DNA of 64,000 nucleotides from Paramacrobiotus metropolitanus. Taxonomy: Eukaryota > Tardigrada > Eutardigrada > Parachela > Macrobiotidae. A program made the translations under genes and the position numbers. The DNA is taken from contig NW_026570285.1 of NCBI RefSeq assembly GCF_019649055.1, positions 372,001 through 436,000 on the forward strand. The letters run 5' to 3'. Positions within the stretch are counted from its first letter, which is position 1; the number at the start of each line of letters is the position of its first letter. Of this stretch, positions 10,768 through 64,000 are shown piece by piece. The notes under the pieces were generated by a model. That model was not told the origin of the DNA and did no database searches. It saw only the letters and a program-made list of their open reading frames with translations.

Positions 10768-11137
10768 TGTCACGTAATGATTTTTATACAGATAATTGAG
10801 CGACAGCTCTGATTCACTTTTATGATGTTGCTTCTGTTTACTGATTCATTTGAGCGATATGCTCGCCCGTGCTATCTGATATTATTCTTTTCTACTTGTT
10901 TACCTACATATACTGCTGTTCTTTACTTCTAACGACATTCATACACGGATGCATGCATTCAGTACCACTTCCGACAGTACACTTCGTACTTCTACCTGAT
11001 TTCTTTCCTAATAACAATTCCCTGCCTCGCATTGCCTTTCTGTTACCGTTAATGCATATTATCATATGTTAGCATACCGGCCGGTTTAGCCGTGCCGTGA
11101 CCTTTAATTACTTTGCTCTGCCATAAATTATGTAACA
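10768..11137 (+). repeat. 5' LTR
   Basis: A 370-bp repeat, TGTCACG...GTAACA. It is identical to the 3' LTR except at about 11007 (c for a) and 11118 (c for t). Confidence 0.9.
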
Positions 11138-17857: not shown

Positions 17858-18227
17858 TGTCACGTAATGATTTTTATACAGATAATTGAGCGACAGCTCT
17901 GATTCACTTTTATGATGTTGCTTCTGTTTACTGATTCATTTGAGCGATATGCTCGCCCGTGCTATCTGATATTATTCTTTTCTACTTGTTTACCTACATA
18001 TACTGATGTTCTTTACTTCTAACGACATTCATACACGGATGCATGCATTCAGTACCACTTCCGACAGTACACTTCGTACTTCTACCTGATTTCTTTCCTA
18101 ATAACAATTCCCTGCCTCGCATTGCCTTTCTGTTACCGTTAATGCATATTATCATATGTTAGCATACCGGCCGGTTTAGCCGTGCCGTGACCTTTAATTA
18201 CTTTGCTTTGCCATAAATTATGTAACA
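17858..18227 (+). repeat. 3' LTR
   Basis: The partner of the 5' LTR, same length, two differences, followed by the GTAT target duplication. Confidence 0.9.
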
Positions 18228-28100: not shown

Positions 28101-29292
28101 AATTATGAATCACGTTAGCGTGTCTGCAATCAGCGCGTATTTGTTTCATTTGTGATCCTACAGTAGTACCACAGCGGTTCCAGTAGCTTACTGGGTGCAT
28201 AAAGTACGTTGCACTACGCCAGTGTGTCAGCAATCAGCGGGTACTTGTTTAACTTGTATTTTTCACAGTGGCTCTACGGTAGATTCATTAGATAACCGGG
28301 TTTATAGGGTACGTCGTACTAAGCTAGTGTGTCAGCAGTCAGCGCCTATTTGTTTCACTTGTGATCCTACAGTGGTACCACAGCGGTTCCATTAGTTCAT
28401 GAGGAATATGAGGTAATTGTGTATCACGCCAGCGTGTTAGCAATCATCGCTTACGTGTTGCACTTGTGATCTTCACAGTGGTTCCACGGTGAATTCATTA
28501 GCTAACTGGGTTTATAGGGAACTTATATATTACGCTAGCGTGTCAGCAATCAGCGCGTACTTGTTCAACTTGTTATCCTACAGTGGTACCACGGCGGATG
28601 CATTAGTTCGTGAGGCTTATAAGGTAATTATGTATCACGTTAGCGTGTCTGCAATCAGCGCGTATTTGTTTCATTTGTGATCCTACAGTGGTGCCACAGC
28701 GGTTCCAGTAGCTTACTGGGTGCATAAGGAACGTTGCACTACTGCAGTGTGTCAGCAATCAGCGCGTACTTGTTGCACTTGTGATCTTCACAGTGGTTCC
28801 ACGGTGAAATCATTAGCTAACTGGGTTTATAGGGAACTTATATATTACGCTAGCGTGTCAGCAATCAGCGCGTACTTGTTTCACTTGTGATCCTACAGTG
28901 GTGCCACAGCGGTTCCAGTATCTTACTGGGTGCATAAAGTACGTTGCACTACGCCAGTGTGTCAGCAATCAGCGCGTACTTGTTTCACTTGTGATCCAAC
29001 GGTGGTTCCACGGTGGATTCATTAGCTAACTGGGTTTTTTAGGGAACTTTTATATTACACCAGCGTGTCAGGAATCAGCGCGTACTTGTTTCACTTGTTA
29101 TTCTACAGTGGTACCACAGCGGTTTCAGTAGCTTACTGGGAGCATAAGGTACGTTGCACTACGCCAGTGTGTCAGCAGTCAGCGGGTACTTCTTGAACTT
29201 GTGATGTTCACAGTGGTGCTACAGTGGATTCATTAGTTGAAGGGGTTTATAGAGTACGTAGATAATACGCCACCGTGTCAGCAATCAGCGCG
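25190..29292. repeat. Satellite array, 105-bp monomer
   Basis: About 39 head-to-tail monomers of 105 bp. Monomers contain a well-kept half (gtgtcagcaatcagcgcgta then cttgtttcacttgtgat) and a variable half. Two main classes tend to alternate: one with cagtggttccacggtg...gctaactgggtttatag, the other with cagtggtaccacagcgg...gcttactgggtgcataag. The second class often carries the palindrome GTGGTACCAC. The first few monomers (25190-25600) are badly diverged. The right end stops abruptly at the foldback element. Because 105 is a multiple of three, frames of 60-126 residues run through neighbouring units; I read these as a by-product of the period. Confidence 0.9.
25955..26346. repeat. 188-bp tandem duplication inside the satellite
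   Basis: The block beginning tgtgtcagcaatcagcggg at 25955 is repeated from 26143 with an offset of 188 bp. That is not a multiple of 105. It looks exact over its length and includes a fused monomer (gatccagcaggtacttg). It marks a recent out-of-register exchange. Confidence 0.75.
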
Positions 29293-29600
29293 TGTAGCCG
29301 GCAGATATATTGGCCTGTTGACTGTTGGCGAGCCCGGCAGGAAAGTGGTTTTCCTCCCATATATCTGCCGAACGGCACCCACATTTCTGCCGACCCGACC
29401 CTATGCATTGCCTATGGGACCTCCAATATATCAGCCGAACTGGCGCAACAGTGAAATTTGATACTTTTATTGAGCGCGAACCGGCAATAGCTCGGCCGGG
29501 CTGGATCATATACACATACAGTCGCCTGTTAGCATATTGTACCGGCAATAAACAGAGCGAAGCCAACGCTTTCTTGCGCCGTGTCTAATCCTTGCAGGAG
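29293..29600 (+). repeat. Outer left inverted arm
   Basis: Pairs with 33040-33351. Open frames of about 90 residues within it are not gene-like. Confidence 0.8.
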
Positions 29601-40873: not shown

Positions 40874-41590
40874 TACTTCTATGGCCTAATGTACGAGACA
40901 TATTGCTGATGTGACTATGTGAGTGACAGACTGGCAGTGTGCGTCCGGCCGGTCAAGGGAAATTAGATGTAGCAGAAAAGGCAGCCAGTGCTGCTCAAAA
41001 GGGAAAAGCGTGGTATATAAAATGCGAAAGAATTGCAAACGGTTAACGTTCTTGTGCGGTCGTATCTACCGGCCATGCGCCATTGCAGTAAATTAACACT
41101 TCCGACGACTTATAACCGTGAAACCAAAAACCAAAAATAATTAAAAATTGGCTATGGGATGCTTTATGTGTCACGAGAAACCTACTAACCACAGTAGTAC
41201 TGATTTCTGTAGGTACACTACACGCGTTAGAATGTGACTGCGTAATCGTTGTTGCCATTGGGCGCTCTGGAAGTCATATTCCACGTACCGAAACTTAACA
41301 CTTCTTCAGCCGCTCACCAAAGTTGCAAATGAAGCAGTGGTACAATGTGCAGGACTTGCAGAATTGCGGGAGCAGCAGGACACAGAGATCCCAGGGGCAC
41401 TCATGTGTAGCTGTTAGCTAATAATAGCGCTCCACAACTCTTACGTCTGAGGACCGTTGTTTGCTGTAAAGTGACTATGGACTCACTCGTGGATAACTTG
41501 GATTGACTGATTCCCTTATAATGTTTTCTGACGATTTTGTGTAAAATCCACGCAGAAATCTTTCATGGAATAATGTTATTGTTATTAAAG
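40874..41590. other. Upstream region of the intact receptor
   Basis: Non-coding apart from the receptor leader. A TATA-like phrase, ggtatataaaatg, lies near 41011-41024 on the plus strand, about 570 bp before the chosen ATG. A role as promoter is possible but unproven. Confidence 0.35.
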
Positions 41591-43067
41591 ATGGACAAGC
41601 CAACCGTTCCGGTCGATGTTTTGTCGTATGTGTGCGTCTTTCAGAATCACTGGCTAAATTTCTCCGGCTTGCCGTCGTTCAGTGAAAAGCCCAGATCTTG
41701 TCATCGTTGGCTGATTTGCGTAACCGTTGCGGTATACTCCACGTTCATCCTGATTCTCGATCTCGCCGGCATTTTTCGCATGGGTTTCGATGCCAGAATC
41801 GTGACCGGCCGTGACAGCTCCCTCGTGGAGATCGTCGCTCGCTTGCCGGATTCGGCTAGCGTCCTGCGCGCCTTGATTCCTTTTGTTATATGTATGTTCC
41901 AGAGTCCGGCATTCAGCCGTCTGCACGAAGCGCTAAATCACCTTATCCATATATCCAACAGTCACCAGAGCCACTTGGCGCAGAAGTGCCGAAAGTGGCG
42001 GCGGTACGGTATCATCTGGGGGTCGGTGTCGGCCGTAATGGCCGTCACCGCGGACTACATCAACTGGCAGTTTTGGTACAATATGCGCGACAGCATGCTG
42101 TCGGGGCACACCAGCACATGGATGTTTACACCGGTGGAAATGCCGGTTGCTGGATTGATTGTCTTCTATTCACTCGGTTTAACGCCCATCTTCATCGTCT
42201 CCCAACAGATTCTGATAACTTGTATCATGGTATCTATCATCCAGAAGGAAGCCTACACTATTTTTAGTGAACACATTCGCAGCACAACTTCCGGGTTTAC
42301 CAAGAGAGAGTTCCCCAGTTTCTTACGGCAAATTCACCAATTCCATGCGACGGCATATGCTGTCAACGAATATGTTAATAGTGTGTACGGATGGAGCATT
42401 CTGGCCATGTACGGGCTCGATGTGATGGCGGCGTGTGGATGCGTGGCGGGAGTGATATCGCTGTTAATGAGCTCCACGATCGACAAGATCAGCTTTAGCG
42501 CGTGGCTAAATTTTATCGTATGGTTCTGTTTCTATGTGTCTTACTGCACAGTGTTCTTGATTCCCGTTTTTAAAGCCGGCGAACAGGTAAATATCAAAGA
42601 CATTGCATAGCAAGGCGGTGGAAATTGTCGGCAGTGTTTGATTATGTATTTTTAGTGGGATGCGATTCAGGTGGCACTGTATGAGTTTCTTGAAACAGCC
42701 AATACGATGTCCCCTGACGATGAAGTACCGCTGAGCGTCCCAAATATTCAAGAAAGAATTGAGGCGTTGCTGTTTATTCGGCGTAATCAGACGGTGGTGC
42801 TCCATGCTGGAGGGTTCTTTTTCGTAACACGGTCACTTTTGGCGCGGGTGAGTTTCCCGTAATTGTAAAGAATGTGTAAATTAACCTGTTAAAAGGTCCG
42901 CATAAAATAACAGAAAGATTATAAAAACACGCATATTGTAGGCGGTTACGTTGATACTCTCCACTTCATTTGTCTGCTATGGTTTGCTACAAATCGACCA
43001 TGGAACCAGCGAATACTTTCCATGGCAAAAAATGGCAAATACTTCCGACAATGTCTGGATGATTTAA
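41591..43067 (+). CDS. Gustatory-receptor-like seven-transmembrane protein (intact copy)
   Basis: Exons 41591-42586, 42656-42847 and 42942-43067, all GT-AG and phase 0, total 437 residues. ATG at 41591 (aagATGg) was preferred over the in-frame ATG at 41573 for its context; both are possible. Seven hydrophobic segments are seen, among them WLICVTVAVYSTFILIL, PVAGLIVFYSLGLTPIF, ILAMYGLDVMAACGCVAGV and FIVWFCFYVSYCTVFLI. The C-terminus has FIRRNQTV then FFFVTRSLLAR and a last helix ending VCYGLLQIDHG. The layout, with the final helix split over small 3' exons, is like arthropod gustatory receptors, which are ligand-gated cation channels in sensory neurons. The family assignment is by architecture, not by a database search. 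It is the only undamaged copy in the window. Confidence 0.75.
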
Positions 43068-44339: not shown

Positions 44340-44441
44340 GAGAGACGGCACCTCGGGATATTTGCAATGTTGCAGCATCCCATAAAACACCAGTGATGAG
44401 TGAAATGCCATTTCACTGAATGGCAAATTCACCCACCCCAA
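44340..44441 (-). pseudogene. Receptor exon 3 relic, copy 5
   Basis: The minus strand reads MAFHSSLVFYGMLQHCKYP, matching SAALVFYGILQ of exon 3 in copy 2. The remaining exons are not seen. It lies on the same strand as copy 4, about 800 bp upstream of it. Confidence 0.55.
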
Positions 44442-47359
44442 AGATTCACGAGTACCGAGGGCGGTTGGCCACTTAAATACTGATTCCCCCCTAGGGGTGC
44501 AAGTAAAATTTATTAAAAATTGATAGGTTAAGATTACCTATACGTTACGGAGCTACGCGTACGTCATCTTTATCTGCCGGCTACCGGTATACCTATACAT
44601 GCATGCAGAAAAACTAAAACCGATTAAAAGTAAATTTAGGATTTATTTCCACTTTAGGGTGCTACGCATACATTATCTATGTGCCCTTGTTTCCATATGC
44701 GTGCGTACGTACAGCAGCAATTTGAATAAATGTAAAAACTAAAATACGAATATATAAGTAATCATGGTGTACTGGTCATAAAAGAAAAACTAAAACGATA
44801 AAAGTCGTGCTGTACATAGATACCGTTTTCCGGGTATACAGAAGGGAGAAATCAAAGTTACGGTAACGCAATTTAGCCACCGTACCGGAGTATACTCGCC
44901 GCGCTAACCGGCGGCAGGCCTGCCACACAGCTTTTCTGCCTCTTTACACTGCTGATGAAGTGTTCAGTGTTTACATATTTCTGTGTATTGCAGTTATCAA
45001 TGTTTTTCAACTGAATAATATTATTACTAATAATTAGTTGAATTGCTAATAGATTTATATATGGCCATAAGGATTTCTATATGGTGATACTTACTATTGC
45101 TATACGCAAATGTCAGTACCATGCGTGTAAATATTCACATGTTATGTGCAATGGCAAACCTTAAATTTAGGCAAAATGTTTAAAGTTAAAAAACCGTGGG
45201 CACTACAGCGTGTTGTTATTATTAGTAGTGGTTATTTTGGAATTGACTGCTACACGCAAACATAAGTTCTATACATTCAGATACTTGTACGTTATCTTTA
45301 AATGCCAAAACTTAGAACTACGTAAAAAATTAATGATAAAAATCATGGACATTATAATATGATTGTTATTATTAGCTATGCTGCCTATTTCTATCGCCAA
45401 ATAATTATTTTTAATTTTTTAGCTCTAACTGCGTTGTTTCAAAATCACATACCCCGAAAAAAGATTGCCTTACCCTTTTAATATTTGGTCAAAAGTTATA
45501 ACTAAAAGAAAGAAGTTCAATGTTACATATGTAATTTGCAGTGTCTACCAATCACTTTGGCCGTTTTCATTTCGGCTGCAATTTACTTCGACCGCAGTAC
45601 ATTTCGGCGGAAATAAGGTTTACCGAAACTTAATCAGCATCTTGTCAGTTGTAATCAGGTCATTGTCACCTTAATAAACAAAAAATTTTTGGAGTGTATT
45701 TTGATGTTCTGGTGAAATAAATGGCATGAACGTGCATGTCAGCCGTACAATTTTGTTAGCGAAGGGGTGGTGGAATTTGTTCCTTCATCAAGCCTTATGA
45801 ACAAAATTTTCCGGCAAGTCGAATTATATTGGTCAGCGAGACTTACGTACTGCAGCATTGTGAACTTTTATAGTTCTACCGGCTGCAGTTTTTTAATGAA
45901 AACACGAGTTATGTTTGGCTCATAAGGCCTGTAATAAAAACTGATTACGTGGCAGACATTCGAATCGATATATATAATTATTATCACTAACGCTAACGTT
46001 ATTTTTCCTAATACAGATGCTAGCCCTAATACAAAACGTTATTGTTCCTAATATTACTTCCTAATATTATTACTATTATTCACCATTGAAATTTTTGGAT
46101 TATTTATTTCTAATTTTGTCATAACGCCGAAACCTTATTTGCACTTCTATGTCCTGATAGACCATTACGTGCGAGAGTTGATGACACAGTGCACGTTAAC
46201 GATGCATGAGCAGTACATATTATGCTTCTCATATTACGTAACGGTCTATAACAATTAGCAAGTGAGCAAAAACTGAAGTTAACTTAACCTCGAGTGAAAT
46301 AACGAATTAAAGTGTATGAATTGACACTATTACAAAGGCTGGCCCAACAATCCTGATTGGTCAATTAATTCGTAGTTTTGCTTTGTCAATGCCGCTTTAC
46401 AATAGCGCAGACAGAGGCTGCAGTCAGTCCTACTAGCACTGGCTTGGTGCATAAACCTTCTAAGAAAGTTAACCCGGTCTGTACGCCAGCACGTGTGACG
46501 TACGTTACAGCGGGTGGCTAGTGAAGTTTCAATCGAGCCTTTAAAACGTATTGTGCTATGTTAGCACAATATGGGTAAACGAGAATGCGCTTACGCATTT
46601 TATATCGCATAGTAGTCAAGTTTAGGAAGTTAGTACATATTAATGTAGAACCAAAATAACAAGTCTAAAATCTACAGATAAGTTTCAAATAATTAAAATT
46701 TACGTAATGCGTTAGCAAAAATTTGGTTACGTATAGCATGTGTGCAATGCTTGAAAGCCAATATGTGATGGCCTGTCGGCATTAGCCCCAGATAACAGTG
46801 ACGAACATGTTCAGATGAAATAAGGAGAAAGTCAATTAGTAAGAAGCTTCAGAACTGCGGACATTAAGTAAGCGTACTGTGCCACAATAATAAAAAATAA
46901 AATGTCAACGCATACGAGAGCAAAAGTGCAAGTACGTATTTATGCCTTAACTGTTTCGTGAGAATATTTCTAGATCACCAAGAAACCTAACCCTGAAGTG
47001 AAACCTAACATAGAGCTGAAAGTCTAGAGATTGATTTGCAAAATTAATTGACCCAATCTGTTACGTTATCAACGTGTTTAAAGCAGTGGGCGGGTGCGAT
47101 GCTTAAGCACAAATACGAATGATTATATGCGAATCATTCCATTATTATGCATTCCACATGCGACTCTGAGTTTTAACTGTTTTGCTTAAAATAAAAAATT
47201 GGGCGTAAGTAATTGTGTTTGCAGTCTGTGTATATTCTCGGAATAGTACATAAAGCGGTAATTTTAATTTTAAGTACCGTGCGCTTGCATGGTTTAATAT
47301 TTTATAAGGAGGGTGTAGTTCGCATCCGAAGTGTACTTTGCTTACCCAGTCCAGGTTGT
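44442..47359. other. Non-coding flank of the palindrome
   Basis: No gene was recognised. A segment at about 44858-44945 (gttacggtaac...cgcgctaaccggcggcagg) is a diverged copy of 51500-51585 in the left arm, so the palindrome shares repeats with this flank. Whether the left arm begins inside this stretch cannot be told, because the right arm runs out of the window. Confidence 0.5.
44858..44945 (+). repeat. Dispersed repeat shared with the palindrome arms
   Basis: Shares gttacggtaac, agccaccgtaccgg, cgcgctaaccgg and ggcaggcctgcca with 51500-51585. The mirror copy in the right arm is at about 58838-58923. Confidence 0.75.
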
Positions 47360-48460
47360 AATTACGCTATATGGAAGACTGCATGTTGGTGTTTTGCAAT
47401 AATCAATTTCTTTGAATAGTAAATCACTGACGTTTTTTTGAGGGTTACGTCAAGTCCAGAAAAGACTTCAGTCGATTTTCTATTGCATTATTGGATAGCA
47501 GTCCATCACCAAAATATCTGTCTCTAAATTTTTCTCATTTAGGCGCCAAATGGTGAGTGTGGTCATTATTACAGGATGAACCAGCCTTATAAAAATTCTG
47601 CACTTGAAACAGAAAATTACTTTTCGGGCTGTCCTTTTTCTTGTAGACACATTTTTGAAAAAAATCATTCCCTAATAAAGAATGCATTCGAGCTGATTAC
47701 GCAATCGAGGTTATTAACGCAACAGCACTTACATACTACAATAATATAAATATAAATATTGTTCAACTATATCGCAATAAACAAAACTATAATTAAGAAG
47801 CCCGTAGAAACGATTAAACGGTTTTCTGGCGTGACAAATTTGCTGCGCATAGTAGTTGTGTATGAGCACGGTGGGTGAGCAGCCCGTGTTCACACATCGG
47901 GAATTGGTAAACGTTCATAGTTGCAATTGCGTTAAAGGGGCATTACGTTATAGTTTAGCGTAATGTTGAAATACCAAACTAAAAACACACCAATAAATCC
48001 AAACAACAAATAAGCGTATCGGGCTGTATTATCATAAAAGTTAAAAAGTAATGCACGTGTAAGTTGCGTGAACAAAGCGTGTTTACATTTGTGACATTTT
48101 ATAATTATCAACAGCGATAATGGCCAGTTCCTAAATTACTAACGCACATTTACTAAGCGTTTCTTGAAATGAAGACCTGCAGAGGAACGTAACTATACCA
48201 TCGCATTTTTTACATTTCCCTAATTTGGTTCAAGTGCATGCTGTCTTTGCAGTTCTTACTGCATTTACGAAAGAGGTGCACCTAACTTACACTCATTCTT
48301 TTATAAACCTACTTGTATGTTTACCGTTAAGAAACCGTAAAGTACTCTGGTATATTCCCACTAAACCTGAAAAAGTATTGCACGTGCAGGATGCGTGACC
48401 ATAAATACGTGCTGGTACATATGATATTTGGTAATGGCAAAGCTTAAAGGATTCACGGTA

Positions 48461-48919
48461 CAGTAAAACCCTTTTACTACATACACCCTCCGTTCTTAGC
48501 TCCCCGAATGCTGTAAAGAGGTGTATGTTACATAGCGGCACCGCCCTTAGGGGCGGTTATTATATACCCCCAAGGGGGGTAGGCCATATATTGATCAATA
48601 GTAACTAAGAGCGGTGACGCTGTTTTGCTGTTTCGTACTGTCAGGTTCAGTACCGATCAGATTTAAAACAGAAACCGGAACTTTCTTCGAAATTTTAATG
48701 CGCTTATTCGGCCAGCTGTATGTTACGCAGGGGGTTGGCGGTATGTTAATTACTGTCAGCCGTTCCACACAAGGTGTATGTTATACTTATAGACAGGTGA
48801 ATGTTGTATAGAGAACTGCCCCTATTTTATAATCCACGGGACAGTCCGGTTCCCAACCGCATGTATATAATAAAGAGGTGAATGTTGTATAAGGGTGTAT
48901 GTAACGAGGGGTTTTACTG
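48461..48919. mobile_element. Pogo/Tigger-like MITE, left arm copy
   Basis: A 459-bp element with inverted termini CAGTAAAACCC.. flanked by TA on both sides. Internal phrases aaagaggtgtatgtt, gacaggtgaatgttgtat and aaagaggtgaatgttgtata repeat the terminal motif. A short palindrome, accgccc-ttag-gggcggt, lies near 48541. There is no transposase. Confidence 0.75.
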
Positions 48920-49724
48920 TACAAATAATCTGTTTCTTAACGAAAGCACTGTTATAAATATAATGCTTCCTCATTTCTTTTAAATATAGCTTTTAACTTT
49001 TGCTAACGGAACGGCTGACTTGAACTTGATCACAAAAGACAAGAACTTAAAGTGTTAGTTTAAATAATTATCAAAATTAAAATGTTTAATTCCAGCATCA
49101 AATTATTTTAGACATTAATGTGAATAGAGATACAAAAAAGTAGTGAGCTTTTTCTATTGAGTTCTGTACATAACTTGATTACATGGAATAAAAGCAGGAG
49201 TGTGGGCTTTTTGCGTATTTCTTCAAATGGTTATGTTAATGTACTACAGATACATAGTACTATATACGTGCTATGAATGTTGATTTTAAGCGTTCAACCA
49301 TTTCAAGAGTAGGAAAGTTTTAAACGCAATTTGCACTGCGTGCTGCACAAAATTTAAATACCTACCATGTAAAAGACGAGGAATGAGAAATGTAATTACT
49401 TTCGCAGATTGTAATAGTTATTACAATCTACTCAGATTGTTAATAATAAGATCGCGCTGAGTTAGATTTACAGCTTAGGACGAAATGGTCGCATAACCCC
49501 ATACCCGGCATTCTGTACGCATGCGGTGCAGTGCTTTTGTACGAACCGGATATTGTGAACTCAATCGTACAGTGCACTGCGCTGTAGTTGCTTTTAATTC
49601 ATTTTTTACTAAAAGTTGAATCAGCTCGTGTATAATGGACGGAAAAAAAAGGTTTCTATTTTCTCGTAAAATGTTGGACATTTCAGTTACGTAGTGGTCA
49701 CAAATACTAAACTAATAAAAAGCA

Positions 49725-49830
49725 TTTACTTACCTATAACACAAAGGTTTTCTCAGCTGTACAGTACAAGAAAAACATAGCAGCGTACACAGCAGTCGCG
49801 TATATAACATCCGCAGACAAATTTCAAATG
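49725..49830. repeat. Arm repeat module, copy 1
   Basis: Contains acttacctataac, ctgtacagtacaag, acatagcagcg and taacatccgcagacaaattt. Related copies are at about 52283-52400 and 54345-54470, spaced by roughly 2-2.5 kb. Confidence 0.6.
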
Positions 49831-50875
49831 CTGGATTGCATTTTCCAGTAATATGGTATAAAAATCGTCGTCAACGTTAACATAAAATTTCGCTCAGGTG
49901 CGCCGAACATATTTTCTAACAGATGTAGAGCAATTTGTATTTGACTCTTAACTTTCTTAGAAGAAAAAAGACTCATGAAGTGAAATATTGTTTATTTAAA
50001 GCAAACGTCTGATAAATCGTTTTAGCGCTGCGTGTAAAGTAAGCTTGGCAGGGCAATATCGGAAGCCTGCCAAGCACATCCTAAAACTAATTTTTGGTGT
50101 GGCTCGTTTTCGGTTCGTACTTGACGCGCTAATGAATTAGGCTGCGATCTGGCGGCACAGTGAACTGGTGTTTCTTAATGCTGGCTTAAAACTGTATAAA
50201 AGATCTCAGCTGCTTTGTGACCTTCGCATCTTTTATATTCAGAACAGTGGTAACTTCCTCAAAGCGCTGAATGAGCAATAATTCGAGTTGAGATGCTTTA
50301 AGAGCATTGTTGTAGTGTGCAGTGCCCAGCAGGAAGAATACAAGTCAGTGTTGGATTTTTGCACGCTGTTACAATATTAGCAAGGCATAACACTACACTA
50401 CGTGGTAGCAGCGCTGTTTAATCAACCGCCTAGAAATGATGACCGCCAGTCGTAATTGGAAGAGCAAACAAAGCTGTCTTCCGTCCGTTTCTGCACATAT
50501 ACTCAGCCAGCCGCGTGCACCTGTGCGACTGCTCGATGTCCACTGCCGCTACGTCAAAACTTCCCTGGTCAGCGCTAGTGCTGCGCATCGGCCGTTCACA
50601 GTTGCACACAGTGAAACGGACGGAGGGCAGCGATGTTTACCTACTTCGTTAAGGATTGGAGCGTACATCGGTTGCAGGTTGAAAAAGTACAGAGAAAGAA
50701 TTTCATTGCTATCACGTAGTGTGTATTTTGCCATGGTATTAGTCAGAATCTGCACAGATATTCAAAAGTGCTTGAAACTTAGTGCTTCAAACTTACAAGT
50801 CTGCAGAATTAAATAAACGGATTACGCAATGATATGGGCGAAGTTAATAAAATGCGCACGTGTACAATTTGGAAA

Positions 50876-50882
50876 TACTGTA
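50876..50882. other. Transposon excision footprint TACTGTA
   Basis: The left arm reads ggaaaTACTGTAtatg where the right arm carries a 938-bp element between two TA dinucleotides. The three bases CTG equal the last three bases of the element. Excision of a Tc1/mariner transposon leaves TA plus three terminal bases plus TA. Confidence 0.85.
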
Positions 50883-51078
50883 TATGTGCTTGCAAATCCG
50901 ATATTACGTAACAGGCAGGAACAACTAACACGTAAGCATACCCCGGGATAAAGATAGACAATAAATGGTAAATACTCGTATTCGAATAAATTTGCAAAAT
51001 TAAATAAACATTGCACTATGTCAATATCTATGGATTTTAGAATAAATTTTAAAAAAATGTTGGATTGTTGCGTCTAAT

Positions 51079-51405
51079 ATGTTTAATAATTTTAAGCATA
51101 TAAATAAATCATTAAAAGACGAAAGTGCACCGGGCCCAGAAATTTCCTCCCCCATGCTATTGGTAAAATCACTCCCCTCCCCCGGAAAAATTCACCGGGA
51201 ACCCACTGGAATAAAAAACAAAAATAAATTGAATGAAATTTCGTTATGGTGTACTACTTATAAAATAACAAAACTGAAAAATAATAATTGTACTGCAAAT
51301 ATTCAGCGTGGGAACGCTGCTTCTGTTCTGGGAACGGTAGGTGTTCTAAACAGCTTGCAGAATTGTTCTTTTTGTTCTAAATTGGTTTATCAAGTTCAAG
51401 TGTAA
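51079..51405 (+). other. 108-residue frame with IQRGNA motif in the left arm
   Basis: Contains NIQRGNAASVLGTVGVL near its end, resembling the fragment at 20575-20787. The rest is unlike a protein (Lys/Asn-rich). The mirror frame in the right arm (59018-59344, minus) differs at two residues. Probably a fossil of the same retroelement family. Confidence 0.3.
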
Positions 51406-52282
51406 ATTAAGAAAGGTATTGTATGATGTAGATCAGTATAAGACTACGAGCTAGAACAGTCATATTATATCGTAGTGCTACCCGGTATGCTGTGGTGGTA
51501 AGTCAACGTTACGGTAACCTGACATAGCCACCGTACCGGTGTATACTGGGCGCGCTAACCGGTGGCAGGCCTGCCAGCCAGCTTAATTCAGCGTGCATTC
51601 AGTGCATATAACGCATTGGCAGGACGACCGCACATCCATACTTTTGTTTCTTGTCTACTTTTCTCTGCTAATGGGCTGTACTCTATGCTTACACAGTACA
51701 TATAAAAAAATCAATGTAAATTGTAGCACAAAAGTTGATTACATTTTTGAAAATGCTCCAAATTTTTATTTTCCTAGCTTATGTGGACTTATGTGACTTA
51801 TGACGTACCTATCTGGAAGCAATAACTTGCCGGTAACAGCTCAGAACTAGGTAGTGTCCGTATAATACTTAAATACTATCTAGAACAGAAAATGCCTTAC
51901 ACATGCACGGTACAAAACCTGATTTCTGATAGGGATCCAGTTAGATGGAAGTGATATTCTGCACTATTTATTTGAACATTTTTCCATCATGAGTTTTATT
52001 ATTTTATTTTTTTAATTGTAGCGTTAATACGTCAACATCATATGCAACCTGCGTCTTAATAGAAGAACCCGTATGGACAATTTGCAGTGCTTTCAGCTGC
52101 ATGTACTTTTAACCCGTGTTTAGTCAGCAAGTTGGAAACAAATACGAACGAAATACGGTTACCAACGTAAGCCAGTACGCACGTGTAGAAAAAATTGCGT
52201 GGGAATCTGACTTTTACCCATGTAGAAAGTTGCTCATTTTAACTGAGTGAAAGGTCACAATTACTGTGCTAATAAATATTGC

Positions 52283-52400
52283 TCACTTACCTATAACGCG
52301 TAAATGGTAATAAAAAAAAGGTTCTCTGAGTTGTACAGTGTAGGGTGACCTTCTCTTTCAGAAGCATAGCACATCCGCAGAGAGATTCCAAAGGCAACGA
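52283..52400. repeat. Arm repeat module, copy 2
   Basis: Contains acttacctataac, gagttgtacagtg, gtgacctt and agcatagcacatccgcagag. It is followed by a stretch (tatatagcctcgctggcc) that also has a diverged partner after copy 3. Confidence 0.6.
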
Positions 52401-54344
52401 TGTATTTATGGAAATGGCTACTATACAATTAATGCAAAAAACGATTTTTAAACTGCAAAGCGCTTGTTTATATAGCCTCGCTGGCCCCACTCATTTTTGT
52501 GGTTGCTCGTTACTTGGACTTTATACATCCACTGGATCCGCTACGCAGGCAATAACTGAGTGACAGTCATTATAATCCTGGTATAAATGTAGCCCTGTCC
52601 TTTTTGTACTGATTTCTCTATATTTTTATACTGATTTTAAAGTCACGAGTACAGTACAAAAAAGTTGATTATGAATTGCATCCAAATTGCTTAGTATCTA
52701 CAATAAGGACATTTTTTGATATGTAGTCTACCTGACAAAATCTTTAGTACGGTAAATACTTGGATGTTTAAATTTTTATTTATGCATAAAAGTGTACATA
52801 AGCACTTACATTTAAACTCTGCAAGTAGCTTCCGTTTAGTTCGCACTGATAATGTAAATGATTTACGATACGATAATCTGCTTCTTAACAGGGTCACAGC
52901 TGTGGAGTACATAATCGGCACATCGTTATTTGATGCAATGTTTGTGCGTGAGAAAAATGATAATAATCACACGCTTGTGCAGTTGCAATCATCCACAACT
53001 AAAGATTTATCCACAACCTTTGGCTCAGAATTATTGACATGATACATTCTTTTCCACGGTTGTATTCACATCACTACTGAAGCATTGTTCATAAAATATC
53101 GCCAATCTCTAAATTTTGTTTCCAGATAATACTAAACCGAGCCGATCGGTTTCTCATAAATTCAGTGCAACAGAAGGAAAAACAGTTGCGAAATTCATGT
53201 CGCTATTTCGATCCTCTGGAAACTGTGGATTTCCTGAAAATATGCAATATTTCTATTAATCTGATACGATGAATGACTACCTTTCCTGCTTTATTTCTGT
53301 ACGGTACTAAATCGTCTCTCGTTGCAGTTAAGGCTATTATTAATGGTGAGCAATTAATGGGGTCATCATAAGACATTAACCCTTTATTTAAAATCCTAAT
53401 GCAAATGTGGTCATATAATACTTGTATTCTGATAAAAAACCTGTACAGAATACTTATGCTACTAACAGTATATCAACTTTTAAGGCGTATTTACTTTGAA
53501 AACATTAGCAGGAACCAGATGCGATGAATAGTGCAGCAACATGATAATTGAGAGCTTTGTTTTATGTATTATAAAAAGGTTGATTGCGTGTTAATAGTTT
53601 TATTTGACACTTAGTATATAAACTCGTAAATTAACCGAATTTCCAATGTGAACCCTATTTAAAAACGCACACCCGTGGAAAGCGGCTAAATATTTTCCGT
53701 AAATTATGAACGTGAGTTGATTATACAGTACAACTAATTACCTTCGGTGCAAATGCAACTAATTACATCCTTCATTTTATTTATCCAGATGTTTAATATT
53801 CCAGTTGTAAAATAGGTGTATGCAGCTTCATAATACGGAATAGTAATTCTGGAGTTTCTGCTTTGTTCAAACAACCTAAAACAATATAGCAAATTCGGGA
53901 GAGCAATAGTTGAGCTGCAGTGATTTTACTTGCACTACTGATGAAGTTCGCGGTAATTGTTTTACTTAACAAGGGTGCTACACTTTACTTAATTAAATAT
54001 CAAAGGCCACTAAAGCTTGAAATACAAGCTAATAACTGCATCTGTTTTAACGAATTCTTGTCATCCGTTGTGATAATAGCTTTTGCCATTATATTGCGGT
54101 AGTGATTATAAGTTTTTAATTTTGTCAATTTACATTTATAGTTTGGTATTATCATATCTAGTTACACAGAAAAATTTTAAATTCGTTGCTTACAAAAGTT
54201 AAAAATAGCCTGAGATGCAATTTAGGTAAACTGGTAAAAGTTGTGGAAAGAGCAAAAATCTGAGTATTACGCCCATAATTATGTCCACATTTCGTGTTCA
54301 ATGAAAGGTCATGAATACACTGTAATTATTATTTTCTTCCCTGC

Positions 54345-54740
54345 ATGGTCGGTAACGGCATTCTGCTGATAACGAAAGGTCACCTGAGCTTTACAGTACA
54401 GGATGATCTTTCCCCTTTAGCAGCATAGCATAACATCCGCATCTGAATTTACCTAGAGATGTTATGCTATGCTACTGGAAAGGTCATCTTTACCTTTATG
54501 ACCGGTCTCCAGGATTATCCTTCCTTTCCAGTAGCATAGCATGGCATTTGTAGATAGTTTCCAGATCCCAGGTGACCTTTTCCTTCCAGCAACATAGCAT
54601 CACATCCGCAAATAGATTTCAAAGGCAATGTTAAGTCTATTCAAGTGACTACAGTTAACTAACGAGAAAAATGATTTTTTTAAACGAAACTTGCCCTTAA
54701 ATAGCCTTGTTGGCCTAGTCAGCTTGGAAGTGGTTAGGTA
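54345..54740. repeat. Arm repeat module, copy 3, expanded into hairpins
   Basis: The phrase agcatagcat with tttcc before it or ggaaa after it occurs four times in alternating orientation. A perfect 20-bp stem pairs 54464-54483 with 54523-54542. A second imperfect stem pairs about 54403-54443 with 54456-54488. It is followed by aaatagccttgttggcc, similar to the sequence after module 2. A mirror copy lies at about 55682-56077. Confidence 0.75.
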
Positions 54741-54781
54741 CAGGGATTCTATAAAGCGGAACCTTCATTATAATTTGCTTC

Positions 54782-55640
54782 GCCAGGATCAACTGAGCGG
54801 CATTGATTAAGTTCCGGGTACACGCCAAAAACAATACAGCAGCTCCAGACTTTAAAGTCGTAATAACATGCTTAAAAATTTGTATTTATAGCTGCACCTG
54901 CTATAGTAAATTCGGTAATTACTAAAGTGATAAAATAAACTTTGATCGTAGATAAACTACTGAATCGCGATACCATTTATTATGTTGGCTATGTCAACTG
55001 CATCTGTTCAATAATTTCTGGTCGTCCTGTAGGACTCGTTTTTTTGGACGCGTTTACGGTGAAGATTATGATTATTCGGGACAGCTAATAAAAAAATTTT
55101 AAATTTATTTTTCACTCGATATTATCAAATTTGAAGGTTAAAACTGTTTTTTTCAGCTTGAGGTATAATCTAAGTCATCTTATGAACAAATACGGTTTTG
55201 CCAATACACAATCCAGTTTTTCAGTGCACAATTAGCTGGCAGTCGTATTCTATTAAAGCGGTAATTTAACCATAAAATTTTTTGCAGGATAACTGAATTT
55301 GGTGACGATCACAAAGAACTTTCTACAATCAGAAGCATAAGGGAAGCAATTTAACTTTTCCGTAAACAACTTGAATTTTACGACAATTACTGTATTTCAA
55401 ATGCTTTTGTAGGAAGCCGCTGAAGTTGGTGGAATGTCAGCACAAAACCTTGGAAATCTGAAGAATTTACCACATTTTTTGAAACCCTGTTAGGTGACAC
55501 TGGTACTAACGCCTATATTCAGTTATGCGCCCAGATCAGCTCGTACTGTAGAAATAGAATTCCATGCTGTAACGACTACAAGGGGCGTAATTATTAGTAA
55601 AAAAACTGAACATAAAATGCTTTTGAGGCGCCCCTTTTTT
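54782..55640. other. Spacer of the giant palindrome
   Basis: 859 bp of unique AT-rich sequence between the arms. There is no recognisable gene or element. Arm identity ends cleanly at both sides (gcttc|gccagg on the left, ttttt|gaagc on the right). Confidence 0.85.
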
Positions 55641-58600
55641 GAAGCAAATTATAATGAAGGTTCCGCTTTATAGAATCCCTGTACCTAACCACTTCCAAGC
55701 TGACTAGGCCAACAAGGCTATTTAAGGGCAAGTTTCGTTTAAAAAAATCATTTTTCTCGTTAGTTAACTGTAGTCACTTGAATAGACTTAACATTGCCTT
55801 TGAAATCTATTTGCGGATGTGATGCTATGTTGCTGGAAGGAAAAGGTCACCTGGGATCTGGAAACTATCTACAAATGCCATGCTATGCTACTGGAAAGGA
55901 AGGATAATCCTGGAGACCGGTCATAAAGGTAAAGATGACCTTTCCAGTAGCATAGCATAACATCTCTAGGTAAATTCAGATGCGGATGTTATGCTATGCT
56001 GCTAAAGGGAAAGATCATCCTGTACTGTAAAGCTCAGGTGACCTTTCGTTATCAGCAGAATGCCGTTACCGACCATGCAGGGAAGAAAATAATAATTACA
56101 GTGTATTCATGACCTTTCATTGAACACGAAATGTGGACATAATTATGGGCGTAATACTCAGATTTTTGCTCTTTCCACAACTTTTACCAGTTTACCTAAA
56201 TTGCATCTCAGGCTATTTTTAACTTTTGTAAGCAACGAATTTAAAATTTTTCTGTGTAACTAGATATGATAATACCAAACTATAAATGTAAATTGACAAA
56301 ATTAAAAACTTATAATCACTACCGCAATATAATGGCAAAAGCTATTATCACAACGGATGACAAGAATTCGTTAAAACAGATGCAGTTATTAGCTTGTATT
56401 TCAAGCTTTAGTGGCCTTTGATATTTAATTAAGTAAAGTGTAGCACCCTTGTTAAGTAAAACAATTACCGCGAACTTCATCAGTAGTGCAAGTAAAATCA
56501 CTGCAGCTCAACTATTGCTCTCCCGAATTTGCTATATTGTTTTTAGGTTGTTTGAACAAAGCAGAAACTCCAGAATTACTATTCCGTATTATGAAGCTGC
56601 ATACACCTATTTTACAACTGGAATATTAAACATCTGGATAAATAAAAATGAAGGATGTAATTAGTTGCATTTGCACCGAAGGTAATTAGTTGTACTGTAT
56701 AATCAACTCACGTTCATAATTTACGGAAAATATTTAGCCGCTTTCCACGGGTGTGCGTTTTTTAAATAGGGTTCACATTGGAAATTCGGTTAATTTACGA
56801 GTTTATATACTAAGTGTCAAATAAAACTATTAACACGCAATCAACCTTTTTATAATACATAAAACAAAGCTCTCAATTATCATGTTGCTGCACTATTCAT
56901 CGCATCTGGTTCCTGCTAATGTTTTCAAAGTAAATACGCCTTAAAAGTTGATATACTGTTAGTAGCATAAGTATTCTGTACAGGTTTTTTATCAGAATAC
57001 AAGTATTATATGACCACATTTGCATTAGGATTTTAAATAAAGGGTTAATGTCTTATGATGACCCCATTAATTGCTCACCATTAATAATAGCCTTAACTGC
57101 AACGAGAGACGATTTAGTACCGTACAGAAATAAAGCAGGAAAGGTAGTCATTCATCGTATCAGATTAATAGAAATATTGCATATTTTCAGGAAATCCACA
57201 GTTTCCAGAGGATCGAAATAGCGACATGAATTTCGCAACTGTTTTTCCTTCTGTTGCACTGAATTTATGAGAAACCGATCGGCTCGGTTTAGTATTATCT
57301 GGAAACAAAATTTAGAGATTGGCGATATTTTATGAACAATGCTTCAGTAGTGATGTGAATACAACCGTGGAAAAGAATGTATCATGTCAATAATTCTGAG
57401 CCAAAGGTTGTGGATAAATCTTTAGTTGTGGATGATTGCAACTGCACAAGCGTGTGATTATTATCATTTTTCTCACGCACAAACATTGCATCAAATAACG
57501 ATGTGCCGATTATGTACTCCACAGCTGTGACCCTGTTAAGAAGCAGATTATCGTATCGTAAATCATTTACATTATCAGTGCGAACTAAACGGAAGCTACT
57601 TGCAGAGTTTAAATGTAAGTGCTTATGTACACTTTTATGCATAAATAAAAATTTAAACATCCAAGTATTTACCGTACTAAAGATTTTGTCAGGTAGACTA
57701 CATATCAAAAAATGTCCTTATTGTAGATACTAAGCAATTTGGATGCAATTCATAATCAACTTTTTTGTACTGTACTCGTGACTTTAAAATCAGTATAAAA
57801 ATATAGAGAAATCAGTACAAAAAGGACAGGGCTACATTTATACCAGGATTATAATGACTGTCACTCAGTTATTGCCTGCGTAGCGGATCCAGTGGATGTA
57901 TAAAGTCCAAGTAACGAGCAACCACAAAAATGAGTGGGGCCAGCGAGGCTATATAAACAAGCGCTTTGCAGTTTAAAAATCGTTTTTTGCATTAATTGTA
58001 TAGTAGCCATTTCCATAAATACATCGTTGCCTTTGGAATCTCTCTGCGGATGTGCTATGCTTCTGAAAGAGAAGGTCACCCTACACTGTACAACTCAGAG
58101 AACCTTTTTTTTATTACCATTTACGCGTTATAGGTAAGTGAGCAATATTTATTAGCACAGTAATTGTGACCTTTCACTCAGTTAAAATGAGCAACTTTCT
58201 ACATGGGTAAAAGTCAGATTCCCACGCAATTTTTTCTACACGTGCGTACTGGCTTACGTTGGTAACCGTATTTCGTTCGTATTTGTTTCCAACTTGCTGA
58301 CTAAACACGGGTTAAAAGTACATGCAGCTGAAAGCACTGCAAATTGTCCATACGGGTTCTTCTATTAAGACGCAGGTTGCATATGATGTTGACGTATTAA
58401 CGCTACAATTAAAAAATAAAATAATAAAACTCATGATGGAAAAATGTTCAAATAAATAGTGCAGAATATCACTTCCATCTAACTGGATCCCTATCAGAAA
58501 TCAGGTTTTGTACCGTGCATGTGTAAGGCATTTTCTGTTCTAGATAGTATTTAAGTATTATACGGACACTACCTAGTTCTGAGCTGTTACCGGCAAGTTA

Positions 58601-59542
58601 TTGCTTCCAGATAGGTACGTCATAAGTCACATAAGTCCACATAAGCTAGGAAAATAAAAATTTGGAGCATTTTCAAAAATGTAATCAACTTTTGTGCTAC
58701 AATTTACATTGATTTTTTTATATGTACTGTGTAAGCATAGAGTACAGCCCATTAGCAGAGAAAAGTAGACAAGAAACAAAAGTATGGATGTGCGGTCGTC
58801 CTGCCAATGCGTTATATGCACTGAATGCACGCTGAATTAAGCTGGCTGGCAGGCCTGCCACCGGTTAGCGCGCCCAGTATACACCGGTACGGTGGCTATG
58901 TCAGGTTACCGTAACGTTGACTTACCACCACAGCATACCGGGTAGCACTACGATATAATATGACTGTTCTAGCTCGTAGTCTTATACTGATCTACATCAT
59001 ACAATACCTTTCTTAATTTACACTTGAACTTGATAAACCAATTTAGAACAAAAAGAACAATTCTGCAAGCTGTTTAGAACACCTACCGTTCCCAGAACAG
59101 AAGCAGCGTTCCCACGCTGAATATGTGCAGTACAATTATTATTTTTCAGTTTTGTTATTTTATAAGTAGTACACCATAACGAACTTTCATTCAATTTATT
59201 TTTGTTTTTTATTCCAGTGGGTTCCCGGTGAATTTTTCCGGGGGAGGGGAGTGATTTTACCAATAGCATGGGGGAGGAAATTTCTGGGCCCGGTGCACTT
59301 TCGTCTTTTAATGATTTATTTATATGCTTAAAATTATTAAACATATTAGACGCAACAATCCAACATTTTTTTAAAATTTATTCTAAAATCCATAGATATT
59401 GACATAGTGCAATGTTTATTTAATTTTGCAAATTTATTCGAATACGAGTATTTACCATTTATTGTCTATCTTTATCCCGGGGTATGCTTACGTGTTAGTT
59501 GTTCCTGCCTGTTACGTAATATCGGATTTGCAAGCACATATA

Positions 59543-60480
59543 CAGCGTGGTAACGCCAAGTTGAAGACAGCGCATATTTAATTCGCCCCCTCACTTCCCT
59601 GTACTTGTTGGTCCTGCTCAATTATTATGGATAAAACTATGGTTCACGGTTCACCTATTCGAAAAAAAATTTTCGCTGTCTTTTGTATAGATCTCATATT
59701 ATTTATATTTTAATTTCATTTCCGGTGAAATTTCGACTGACCAGCGTTTTCAGGATATTTTGGCTTGAAACTTTTTAACGCTCTTCGTACTTTTCAGTGT
59801 TTGGTTTTTTTTCTCATGTACTTTTCCGCCTATTTCAAGAAAAAAATAAGGTGGTTGGCTTTCCTTATCTTCCACAGGAAAGAGGATTTTTTTTAAAATA
59901 TGCTGTTTTCAAAAACCGACCGGGATTTTTTAGGTCGCCGTGGTAAATTCCCTGTACAGTTGTAAGGCATTACTCGGCTTCTCCCGGCCTGTTTTCGCAC
60001 AGACACAACTGTTAGGTGTCCTAGTTTTGTGTCTGCTCAGGGGGTAGTCGCTATTAACTACACTTGTCCAACAAAATCTGGGACCTACTGTGTCATCCAG
60101 GAATCTTCCCTTTGGGAGACCCTGCAGAATCGGAAACCAATTCGAATATGGAACAATTTTGTTTTGTTCGTTGGCACAAATATCAGCCTTTACGGTGATA
60201 AAAAGTACGAAAGAGACCCAGACGATCTGGATTTTTTGCGTAATTTTTTTGTTGATCCACCCCCTTTGCATTTTGCGAAGTGGTCACTGGTCAAATTCCA
60301 GTGACCACTTCCGGAAAAAATCCGAAAATTCCAGAAAGAGTTTATCCACAAAAACAGAGTGTTTTTCCAGTTCTCCAAACATAGCGTTACTAGTTTTAGC
60401 AATAAGAGGGTTAAAAGTACCAAACTCTGAAATTTTAATAATTGGCAACCAACTGTCTTCAACTTGGCGTTACCACGCTG
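59543..60480. mobile_element. Tc1/mariner-type element present only in the right arm
   Basis: A 938-bp element with perfect 28-bp inverted termini beginning CAGCGTGGTAACGCCAAGTT. It is flanked by TA at 59541-59542 and 60481-60482. The interior has open frames of about 90-113 residues on both strands without a DDE transposase pattern, so it is non-autonomous. An internal phrase, gcgaagtggtcactgg.. with its complement ccagtgaccacttccgg (about 60277-60316), forms a strong hairpin. The left arm carries an excision footprint at the matching site. Confidence 0.85.
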
Positions 60481-62439
60481 TATTTCCAAATTGTACACGT
60501 GCGCATTTTATTAACTTCGCCCATATCATTGCGTAATCCGTTTATTTAATTCTGCAGACTTGTAAGTTTGAAGCACTAAGTTTCAAGCACTTTTGAATAT
60601 CTGTGCAGATTCTGACTAATACCATGGCAAAATACACACTACGTGATAGCAATGAAATTCTTTCTCTGTACTCTTTCAACCTGCAACCGATGTACGCTCC
60701 AATCCTTAACGAAGTAGGTAAACATCGCTGCCCTCCGTCCGTTTCACTGTGTGCAACTGTGAACGGCCGATGCGCAGCACTAGCGCTGACCAGGGAAGTT
60801 TTGACGTAGCGGCAGTGGACATCGAGCAGTCGCACAGGTGCACGCGGCTGGCTGAGTATATGTGCAGAAACGGACGGAAGACAGCTTTGTTTGCTCTTCC
60901 AATTACGACTGGCGGTCATCATTTCTAGGCGGTTGATTAAACAGCGCTGCTACCACGTAGTGTAGTGTTATGCCTTGCTAATATTGTAACAGCGTGCAAA
61001 AATCCAACACTGACTTGTATTCTTCCTGCTGGGCACTGCACACTACAACAATGCTCTTAAAGCATCTCAACTCGAATTATTGCTCATTCAGCGCTTTGAG
61101 GGAAGTTACCACTGTTCTGAATATAAAAAGATGCGAAGGTCACAAAGCAGCTGAGATCTTTTATACAGTTTTAAGCCAGCATTAAGAAACACCAGTTCAC
61201 TGTGCCGCCAGATCGCAGCCTAATTCATTAGCGCGTCAAGTACGAACCGAAAACGAGCCACACCAAAAATTAGTTTTAGGATGTGCTTGGCAGGCTTCCG
61301 ATATTGCCCTGCCAAGCTTACTTTACACGCAGCGCTAAAACGATTTATCAGACGTTTGCTTTAAATAAACAATATTTCACTTCATGAGTCTTTTTTCTTC
61401 TAAGAAAGTTAAGAGTCAAATACAAATTGCTCTACATCTGTTAGAAAATATGTTCGGCGCACCTGAGCGAAATTTTATGTTAACGTTGACGACGATTTTT
61501 ATACCATATTACTGGAAAATGCAATCCAGCATTTGAAATTTGTCTGCGGATGTTATATACGCGACTGCTGTGTACGCTGCTATGTTTTTCTTGTACTGTA
61601 CAGCTGAGAAAACCTTTGTGTTATAGGTAAGTAAATGCTTTTTATTAGTTTAGTATTTGTGACCACTACGTAACTGAAATGTCCAACATTTTACGAGAAA
61701 ATAGAAACCTTTTTTTTCCGTCCATTATACACGAGCTGATTCAACTTTTAGTAAAAAATGAATTAAAAGCAACTACAGCGCAGTGCACTGTACGATTGAG
61801 TTCACAATATCCGGTTCGTACAAAAGCACTGCACCGCATGCGTACAGAATGCCGGGTATGGGGTTATGCGACCATTTCGTCCTAAGCTGTAAATCTAACT
61901 CAGCGCGATCTTATTATTAACAATCTGAGTAGATTGTAATAACTATTACAATCTGCGAAAGTAATTACATTTCTCATTCCTCGTCTTTTACATGGTAGGT
62001 ATTTAAATTTTGTGCAGCACGCAGTGCAAATTGCGTTTAAAACTTTCCTACTCTTGAAATGGTTGAACGCTTAAAATCAACATTCATAGCACGTATATAG
62101 TACTATGTATCTGTAGTACATTAACATAACCATTTGAAGAAATACGCAAAAGCCCACACTCCTGCTTTTATTCCATGTAATCAAGTTATGTACAGAACTC
62201 AATAGAAAAAGCTCACTACTTTTTTGTATCTCTATTCACATTAATGTCTAAAATAATTTGATGCTGGAATTAAACATTTTAATTTTGATAATTATTTAAA
62301 CTAACACTTTAAGTTCTTGTCTTTTGTGATCAAGTTCAAGTCAGCCGTTCCGTTAGCAAAAGTTAAAAGCTATATTTAAAAGAAATGAGGAAGCATTATA
62401 TTTATAACAGTGCTTTCGTTAAGAAACAGATTATTTGTA

Positions 62440-62899
62440 CAGTAAAACCCCTCGTTACATACACCCTTATACAACATTCACCTCTTTATTATATACATGC
62501 GGTTGGGAACCGGACTGTCCCGTGGATTATAAAATAGGGGCAGTTCTCTATACAACATTCACCTGTCTATAAGTATAACATACACCTTGTGTGGAACGGC
62601 TGACAGTAATTAACATACCGCCAACCCCCTGCGTAACATACAGCTGGCCGAATAAGCGCATTAAAATTTCGAAGAAAGTTCCGGTTTCTGTTTTAAATCT
62701 GATCGGTACTGAACCTGACAGTACGAAACAGCAAAACAGCGTCACCGCTCTTAGTTACTATTGATCAATATATGGCCTACCCCCCTTGGGGGTATGTTAA
62801 TAACCGCCCCTAAGGGCGGTGCCGCTATGTAACATACACCTCTTTACAGCATTCGGGGAGCTAAGAACGGAGGGTGTATGTAGTAAAAGGGTTTTACTG
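62440..62899. mobile_element. Pogo/Tigger-like MITE, right arm copy
   Basis: Mirror copy of 48461-48919, one base longer, also flanked by TA. Its presence in both arms at the matching site shows it was there before the arms were duplicated or that it was copied by conversion. Confidence 0.75.
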
Positions 62900-64000
62900 T
62901 ACCGTGAATCCTTTAAGCTTTGCCATTACCAAATATCATATGTACCAGCACGTATTTATGGTCACGCATCCTGCACGTGCAATACTTTTTCAGGTTTAGT
63001 GGGAATATACCAGAGTACTTTACGGTTTCTTAACGGTAAACATACAAGTAGGTTTATAAAAGAATGAGTGTAAGTTAGGTGCACCTCTTTCGTAAATGCA
63101 GTAAGAACTGCAAAGACAGCATGCACTTGAACCAAATTAGGGAAATGTAAAAAATGCGATGGTATAGTTACGTTCCTCTGCAGGTCTTCATTTCAAGAAA
63201 CGCTTAGTAAATGTGCGTTAGTAATTTAGGAACTGGCCATTATCGCTGTTGATAATTATAAAATGTCACAAATGTAAACACGCTTTGTTCACGCAACTTA
63301 CACGTGCATTACTTTTTAACTTTTATGATAATACAGCCCGATACGCTTATTTGTTGTTTGGATTTATTGGTGTGTTTTTAGTTTGGTATTTCAACATTAC
63401 GCTAAACTATAACGTAATGCCCCTTTAACGCAATTGCAACTATGAACGTTTACCAATTCCCGATGTGTGAACACGGGCTGCTCACCCACCGTGCTCATAC
63501 ACAACTACTATGCGCAGCAAATTTGTCACGCCAGAAAACCGTTTAATCGTTTCTACGGGCTTCTTAATTATAGTTTTGTTTATTGCGATATAGTTAAACA
63601 ATATTTATATTTATATTATTGTAGTATGTAAGTGCTGTTGCGTTAATAACCTCGATTGCGTAATCAGCTCGAATGCATTCTTTATTAGGGAATGATTTTT
63701 TTCAAAAATGTGTCTACAAGAAAAAGGACAGCCCGAAAAGTAATTTTCTGTTTCAAGTGCAGAATTTTTATAAGGCTGGTTCATCCTGTAATAATGACCA
63801 CACTCACCATTTGGCGCCTAAATGAGAAAAATTTAGAGACAGATATTTTGGTGATGGACTGCTATCCAATAATGCAATAGAAAATCGACTGAAGTCTTTT
63901 CTGGACTTGACGTAACCCTCAAAAAAACGTCAGTGATTTACTATTCAAAGAAATTGATTATTGTAAAACACCAACATGCAGTCTTCCATATAGCGTAATT

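Follow-up and report, generated by a model that had tools for sequence, protein, structure and literature searches.

The window analysed here, a stretch of 64,000 nucleotides from the tardigrade Paramacrobiotus metropolitanus, holds the greater part of a palindrome of 22,575 bp that occupies positions 44394-66968 (window coordinates) and so runs past the window end, inside an 820-kb contig that continues well beyond both sides. The outermost bases of both arms are the 27-nt motif TGATGAGTGAAATGCCATTTCACTGAA, at 44394 and 66968, and CACCAG flanks both palindrome ends as a perfect 6-bp target-site duplication (TSD). This end motif itself includes a short hairpin. The features are as follows (TIR: terminal inverted repeat):

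44388-44393, unstranded: CACCAG, left 6-bp TSD of the giant element, its right counterpart lying outside the window at 66969-66974
44394-54781, plus strand: left arm, TIR of ~10.4 kb with end motif TGATGAGTGAAATGCCATTTCACTGAA
50876-50882, plus strand: TA-CTG-TA in the left arm, read as an excision footprint (direct sequence; single TA at sibling empty sites)
54782-55640, unstranded: central spacer, 859 bp, most of which also matches the C4 and C149 relatives (88%)
55641-64000, minus strand: right arm, the other TIR, running on to 66968 outside the window
59541-59542, unstranded: TA target-site duplication, left copy (sequence)
59543-60480, unstranded: 938-bp element in the right arm, assigned as non-autonomous and of Tc1/mariner type (28-bp TIRs, flanking TAs, ~10 sibling copies)
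59543-59570, plus strand: 28-bp TIR of the 938-bp element (sequence)
60453-60480, minus strand: 28-bp TIR of the 938-bp element (sequence)
60481-60482, unstranded: TA target-site duplication, right copy (sequence)

Elsewhere in the window lie a moderately diverged tandem array (25570-29293; ~105-bp unit, ~28 copies), two direct copies of 370 bp that are 99.5% identical (10768-11137 and 17858-18227) and open frames with a 7tm chemosensory receptor (41522-42610), kelch repeats (22776-23561) and an F-box (7706-8593).

Base-by-base alignment of the two arms gave GGAAATA-CTG-TATATGTGCT for the left arm at 50871-50890 and, in reverse complement, GGAAATA-[938 bp, CAGCGTGG...CCACGCTG]-TATATGTGC for the right arm: the site structures of the original prediction (TA-938 bp-TA on the right, TA-CTG-TA on the left) were hence read correctly. 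The resulting net difference of 935 bases is the sole large one over the ~10.4 kb aligned, with the remaining differences comprising six isolated substitutions, one short complex change and twelve 1-base indels (arm-to-arm identity 99.9%). Many of the 1-base differences adjoin single-base runs, the pattern expected of sequencing or polishing error, whilst the complex change (44828-44835 / 66527-66534), where the right arm has a second GCTGTACATAGATAC copy and the left arm TTCCGGGTATAC, looks like a local template switch. With only six events, the clustering of arm substitutions around the site was judged too weak to count. An assembly-wide search found neither a third copy of the site nor a related unoccupied copy of it, and the stretches read on contigs C4 and C149, searched for a homologous site as outgroup, proved unrelated to the window arms and contain a dispersed repeat, so that the arm differences were not polarised. 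The sequence CAGCGTGG is also present in both arms at 51304/59112, outside a full TIR.

The ends of the 938-bp element form a perfect 28-bp inverted repeat, CAGCGTGGTAACGCCAAGTTGAAGACAG. The genome holds other copies with these termini: about ten siblings, at 94-99% identity overall and 98-99.5% within the same subfamily. TA flanks both sides of every full-length copy, as well as of L021, a copy with an internal deletion, and of three longer copies described below; the full-length siblings, set against related empty sites, display the TA target-site duplication of Tc1/mariner elements. A relative of the window element that is only 67-68% identical, and presumably older, lies at C57:612736-613664.

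The ends of the three longer copies, of ~1,290 bp, are almost those of the 938-bp element. The one at C36:742719-744008 (1,290 bp) has 27 of the 28 TIR bases in common with the window element, the single mismatch being A versus G, and contains an uninterrupted transposase frame of 362 codons; in the C467 copy the frame is shifted, and in the C117 copy the start is altered. TIRs common to a transposase-coding partner are what a Tc1/mariner assignment calls for, and the length of the frame agrees with the ~340-360 aa of a DDE/D transposase of this group. The 362-aa protein shows a weak though significant match to the Sleeping Beauty transposase (E 8e-5); its match to Pfam DDE_3 is sub-threshold only. 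Its second and third catalytic residues are 37 residues apart, as they are in five relatives (35-98% identity), in one of which the third residue is N; a spacing of 37 between the second and third catalytic D is named DD37D/maT (PMC8472432, PMC2874221). An AlphaFold model of the partner transposase, built from a three-sequence alignment, reached a pLDDT of 52, too poor for use. Since the 938-bp element shares only ~30 terminal bases with the coding partner, it is, to judge from its termini and target site, a non-autonomous Tc1/mariner element. The intact C36 frame is a candidate for the mobilising transposase that the original prediction proposed to look for, and an enzyme of this D,D37D (maT-like) type, the activity of which is predicted, probably carried out the excision.

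Does the left-arm site record an excision, or was it never occupied? At none of the TAs in the left-arm sequence did insertion of the element reproduce the right arm, while insertion into the TA-only GGAAATATATGTGC did; the left arm is therefore not the ancestor of the right. The joined flanks of eleven further insertions, siblings as well as long partner copies, served as queries against the genome, and related never-occupied places emerged for three insertions: a single one for L011, five for L021 and, for L015, four that were read. Each of these has a single TA with neither CTG nor CAG inserted, and TACTGTA or TACAGTA was found at none of the never-occupied relatives of the three sibling insertions. 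This bears out the premise of the original prediction that a never-occupied site would lack the three extra bases, and at the sibling sites it removes the objection that related unoccupied copies might already read TACTGTA. The ends of Sleeping Beauty also start with CAG. Its consensus footprints are TACAGTA and TACTGTA (PMC4378557), the latter being identical to the left-arm site, in agreement with the earlier claim that this is the known product of Tc1/mariner excision; such footprints arise by end joining (PMC2874221). At 50876-50882 the element is replaced by TA, three terminal bases and TA, the 3-nt footprint of Sleeping Beauty/mariner type, and an excision reading of the left-arm site is well supported.

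The palindrome that carries this site has relatives with the same ends at three further places: C55:829409-854239 (24,831 bp, TSD ATGGCC), C149:132645-155865 (23,221 bp, flanks CTCCTC/CTTCTC) and C4:3683066-3701629 (18,564 bp), where a recognisable TSD is absent. Single ends are found on C186 and C11. Exact 6-bp TSDs are hence present in two of the four copies, an outcome very improbable by chance (~4e-7). Given the conserved ends in other copies and the exact 6-bp TSDs, the palindrome is a single transposon copy with TIRs of ~10.4 kb. A fold-back artefact at a contig end was considered and rejected: the palindrome lies in the interior of the 820-kb contig, with distinct flanks and a TSD. When the longest open frames of the arms were scanned singly no family scored above the cut-off, an Rfam search of the window gave no match, and a literature search yielded no example of the end motif. 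In case of the C55 copy, symmetry was not found in a short sample 5 kb inside the ends, and sequence of another kind, perhaps coding, may for that reason lie within this copy. The window palindrome exemplifies how one insertion of a giant transposon, and not a segmental duplication, can underlie a long and almost perfect palindrome in an animal genome; a transposon origin is worth checking before any such palindrome is taken for an ordinary inverted duplication.

The C4 and C149 relatives are palindromic too, and their arm blocks are mostly 86-89% identical to those of the window palindrome (C65). Within each locus, sampled interior arm blocks are identical: C149:140960-142211 against 146202-147456 showed no substitution in 1,250 positions, and C4:3687354-3687733 against 3696972-3697348 none in 377. 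The sampled C149 and C4 blocks differ by 11-12% from the window arms (134 substitutions in 1,251 positions for C149 against C65). Over the outermost 51-60 bases, the two C149 arms differ at one position, as do the two C4 arms. Identical inner blocks, differing outermost bases and decayed or absent TSDs in C149 and C4 fit, within this small sample, a copying of the interior from arm to arm after insertion. The inner extents of the three palindromes are unequal, with a C149 centre of ~4 kb and a C4 palindrome in which the greater part of one inner arm appears to be missing; each palindrome may for this reason have arisen separately, although the shared spacer and shared ends favour a common origin.

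Our best explanation of the locus, which we consider likely, is the excision of a Tc1/mariner-type element from one arm of a giant long-TIR transposon, in stepwise order. The long inverted repeat would already have been present, as part of an old giant long-TIR transposon family, when a TA in one arm received the young 938-bp element. Arm-to-arm copying (by gene conversion, or by the giant element's own replication) would then have spread it to the second arm, given that the element was apparently once present in both. Its excision from the left arm would have left CTG between two TAs, with the break end-joined, and later arm-to-arm copying would have yet to erase the difference, as follows from the present state of the arms; the remark of the original prediction that gene conversion has not since removed it holds in the same way. 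The giant element and the footprint can both be read directly from the DNA, and the age order of the first two steps probably holds on the strength of relative divergence: relatives at 86-89% identity are palindromic, as against 98-99.5% identity within the element subfamily, so that the inverted repeat probably predates the 938-bp element by a wide margin, assuming one shared origin of the C65, C4 and C149 palindromes.

This order departs from the original prediction, in which inverted duplication of a single-copy region bearing the element was followed by the element's jump out of one arm. Arms that are 99.9% identical, and that both apparently held the element at some time, are in keeping with such a history; the inverted repeat, however, makes up the body of a family of transposons marked by conserved ends and 6-bp TSDs, and relatives diverged by 11-14% are also palindromic while the 938-bp subfamily has diverged by only 1-2%. 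We regard this history as unlikely, and the statement that the element was present in the common ancestor of the arms as unproven and probably wrong in detail, with relatives at 86-89% already palindromic. The accompanying date, excision after duplication, is probably right, but falls short of strict proof since the footprint could have come from another chromosome or the arms from different haplotypes. What stands is its weaker form, namely that the excision postdates the last copying event at the site, without support from the argument on the ancestor of the arms.

The second of these reservations can be put as a history of its own, with the two arms drawn from different haplotypes or individuals and an element allele and a footprint allele placed in opposite arms. 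The data stem from a single assembly and many 1-base arm differences sit beside single-base runs, so the arm difference may reflect polishing error, somatic mosaicism or a join of haplotypes; against this, unique and distinct flanks, an exact 6-bp TSD, contig sequence past both sides and relatives of the same architecture point to a real palindrome. We hold a mixture of haplotypes to be quite unlikely; if true, the footprint would be a real excision polymorphism and its timing relative to the palindrome meaningless. To a similarly small degree we would credit a replicative history, in which the giant palindromic elements are replicating linear transposons, gene-less Maverick-like derivatives that regenerate one arm from the other at each copying: the 938-bp element would have been copied to the second arm in this manner, with the footprint among the few later differences, and arm identity would mark the birth of each copy, as LTR identity does for retrotransposons. 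Very unlikely, in our estimate, is a left arm that never held the element and received the footprint by conversion from an excised right-arm allele on a sister chromatid or the homologous chromosome: the family does show signs of arms homogenising one another, and a tract converted in this way would bring the footprint along, but an extra step is required, and one genome cannot discriminate between the two. A history without any transposase, be it a chance deletion of 935 bp or insertion into a pre-existing TACTGTA, is scarcely credible even though TACTGTA is frequent by itself (17 places in the window), since both breakpoints of a deletion would have to hit the exact element ends, the right arm is not obtainable by TA insertion into TACTGTA, and CTG/CAG is absent from the sibling empty sites.

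Under the preferred reading of an excision from one arm after arm-to-arm copying, a nested element kept in one arm and excised from the other orders the events in a sequence that otherwise erases itself: insertion, arm-to-arm copying, excision. If this were confirmed by reads and populations, the site would measure the rate of arm copying against the rate of Tc1/mariner excision.

In comparison with known systems, both the footprint and the 938-bp element fall within known kinds, of which they are ordinary representatives. Footprints of the Sleeping Beauty/mariner type have the same TA-three terminal bases-TA structure, CAG/CTG ends and end-joined double-strand break (PMC4378557; PMC2874221); unlike those of Sleeping Beauty, the event here is a natural one, visible between the paired arms of a single palindrome within one genome, and its likely transposase belongs to the D,D37D and not the DD34E type. 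With maT (DD37D) the system shares the TA target, a single transposase frame of ~360 aa, the D,D37D spacing and bounding inverted repeats (PMC8472432, PMC2874221), whereas the window element is non-autonomous, with only ~30 terminal bases common to the coding copy, and the likeness to maT is one of spacing, not of sequence comparison.

The giant element falls between foldback-type and Maverick-like features, and we leave it unclassified. Very long inverted repeats with conserved termini, a short centre, no coding capacity seen and a terminal TSD are shared with foldback-type elements such as FB, Galileo and Tetris (PMC4079207, PMC4168063), and for Tetris it has been proposed that copies become homogenised internally (PMC4079207, PMC4168063). 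The arms of ~10.4 kb are, however, several times longer than the Drosophila foldback examples compared (PMC4168063, PMC4079207), among them the D. willistoni Galileo copy with the second-longest TIRs (1,575 bp; PMC4168063), the TSD measures 6 bp as opposed to 8-10 bp in Tetris, and no substantial array of the internal tandem repeats typical of FB, Galileo and Tetris TIRs was present in the arm. The 6-bp TSDs (CACCAG, ATGGCC) and the total length of 18.6-24.8 kb resemble Maverick/Polinton elements, of which intact vertebrate copies span 12.7-24.6 kb (PMC8097293); by contrast, vertebrate Maverick TIRs do not exceed 1,447 bp, which the arm length does not fit, and end in (AGT)2 or (AG)3, not in TGATGAGTG (PMC8097293), and no Maverick genes (pPolB, integrase, ATPase, capsid) were seen among the arm ORFs scanned. 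Finally, sex-chromosome and Caenorhabditis palindromes likewise have arms that resemble each other far more at one locus than across relatives, the pattern that arm-to-arm conversion would produce (PMC1803023), but the palindrome described here differs from them in being bounded by transposon ends and a target-site duplication.
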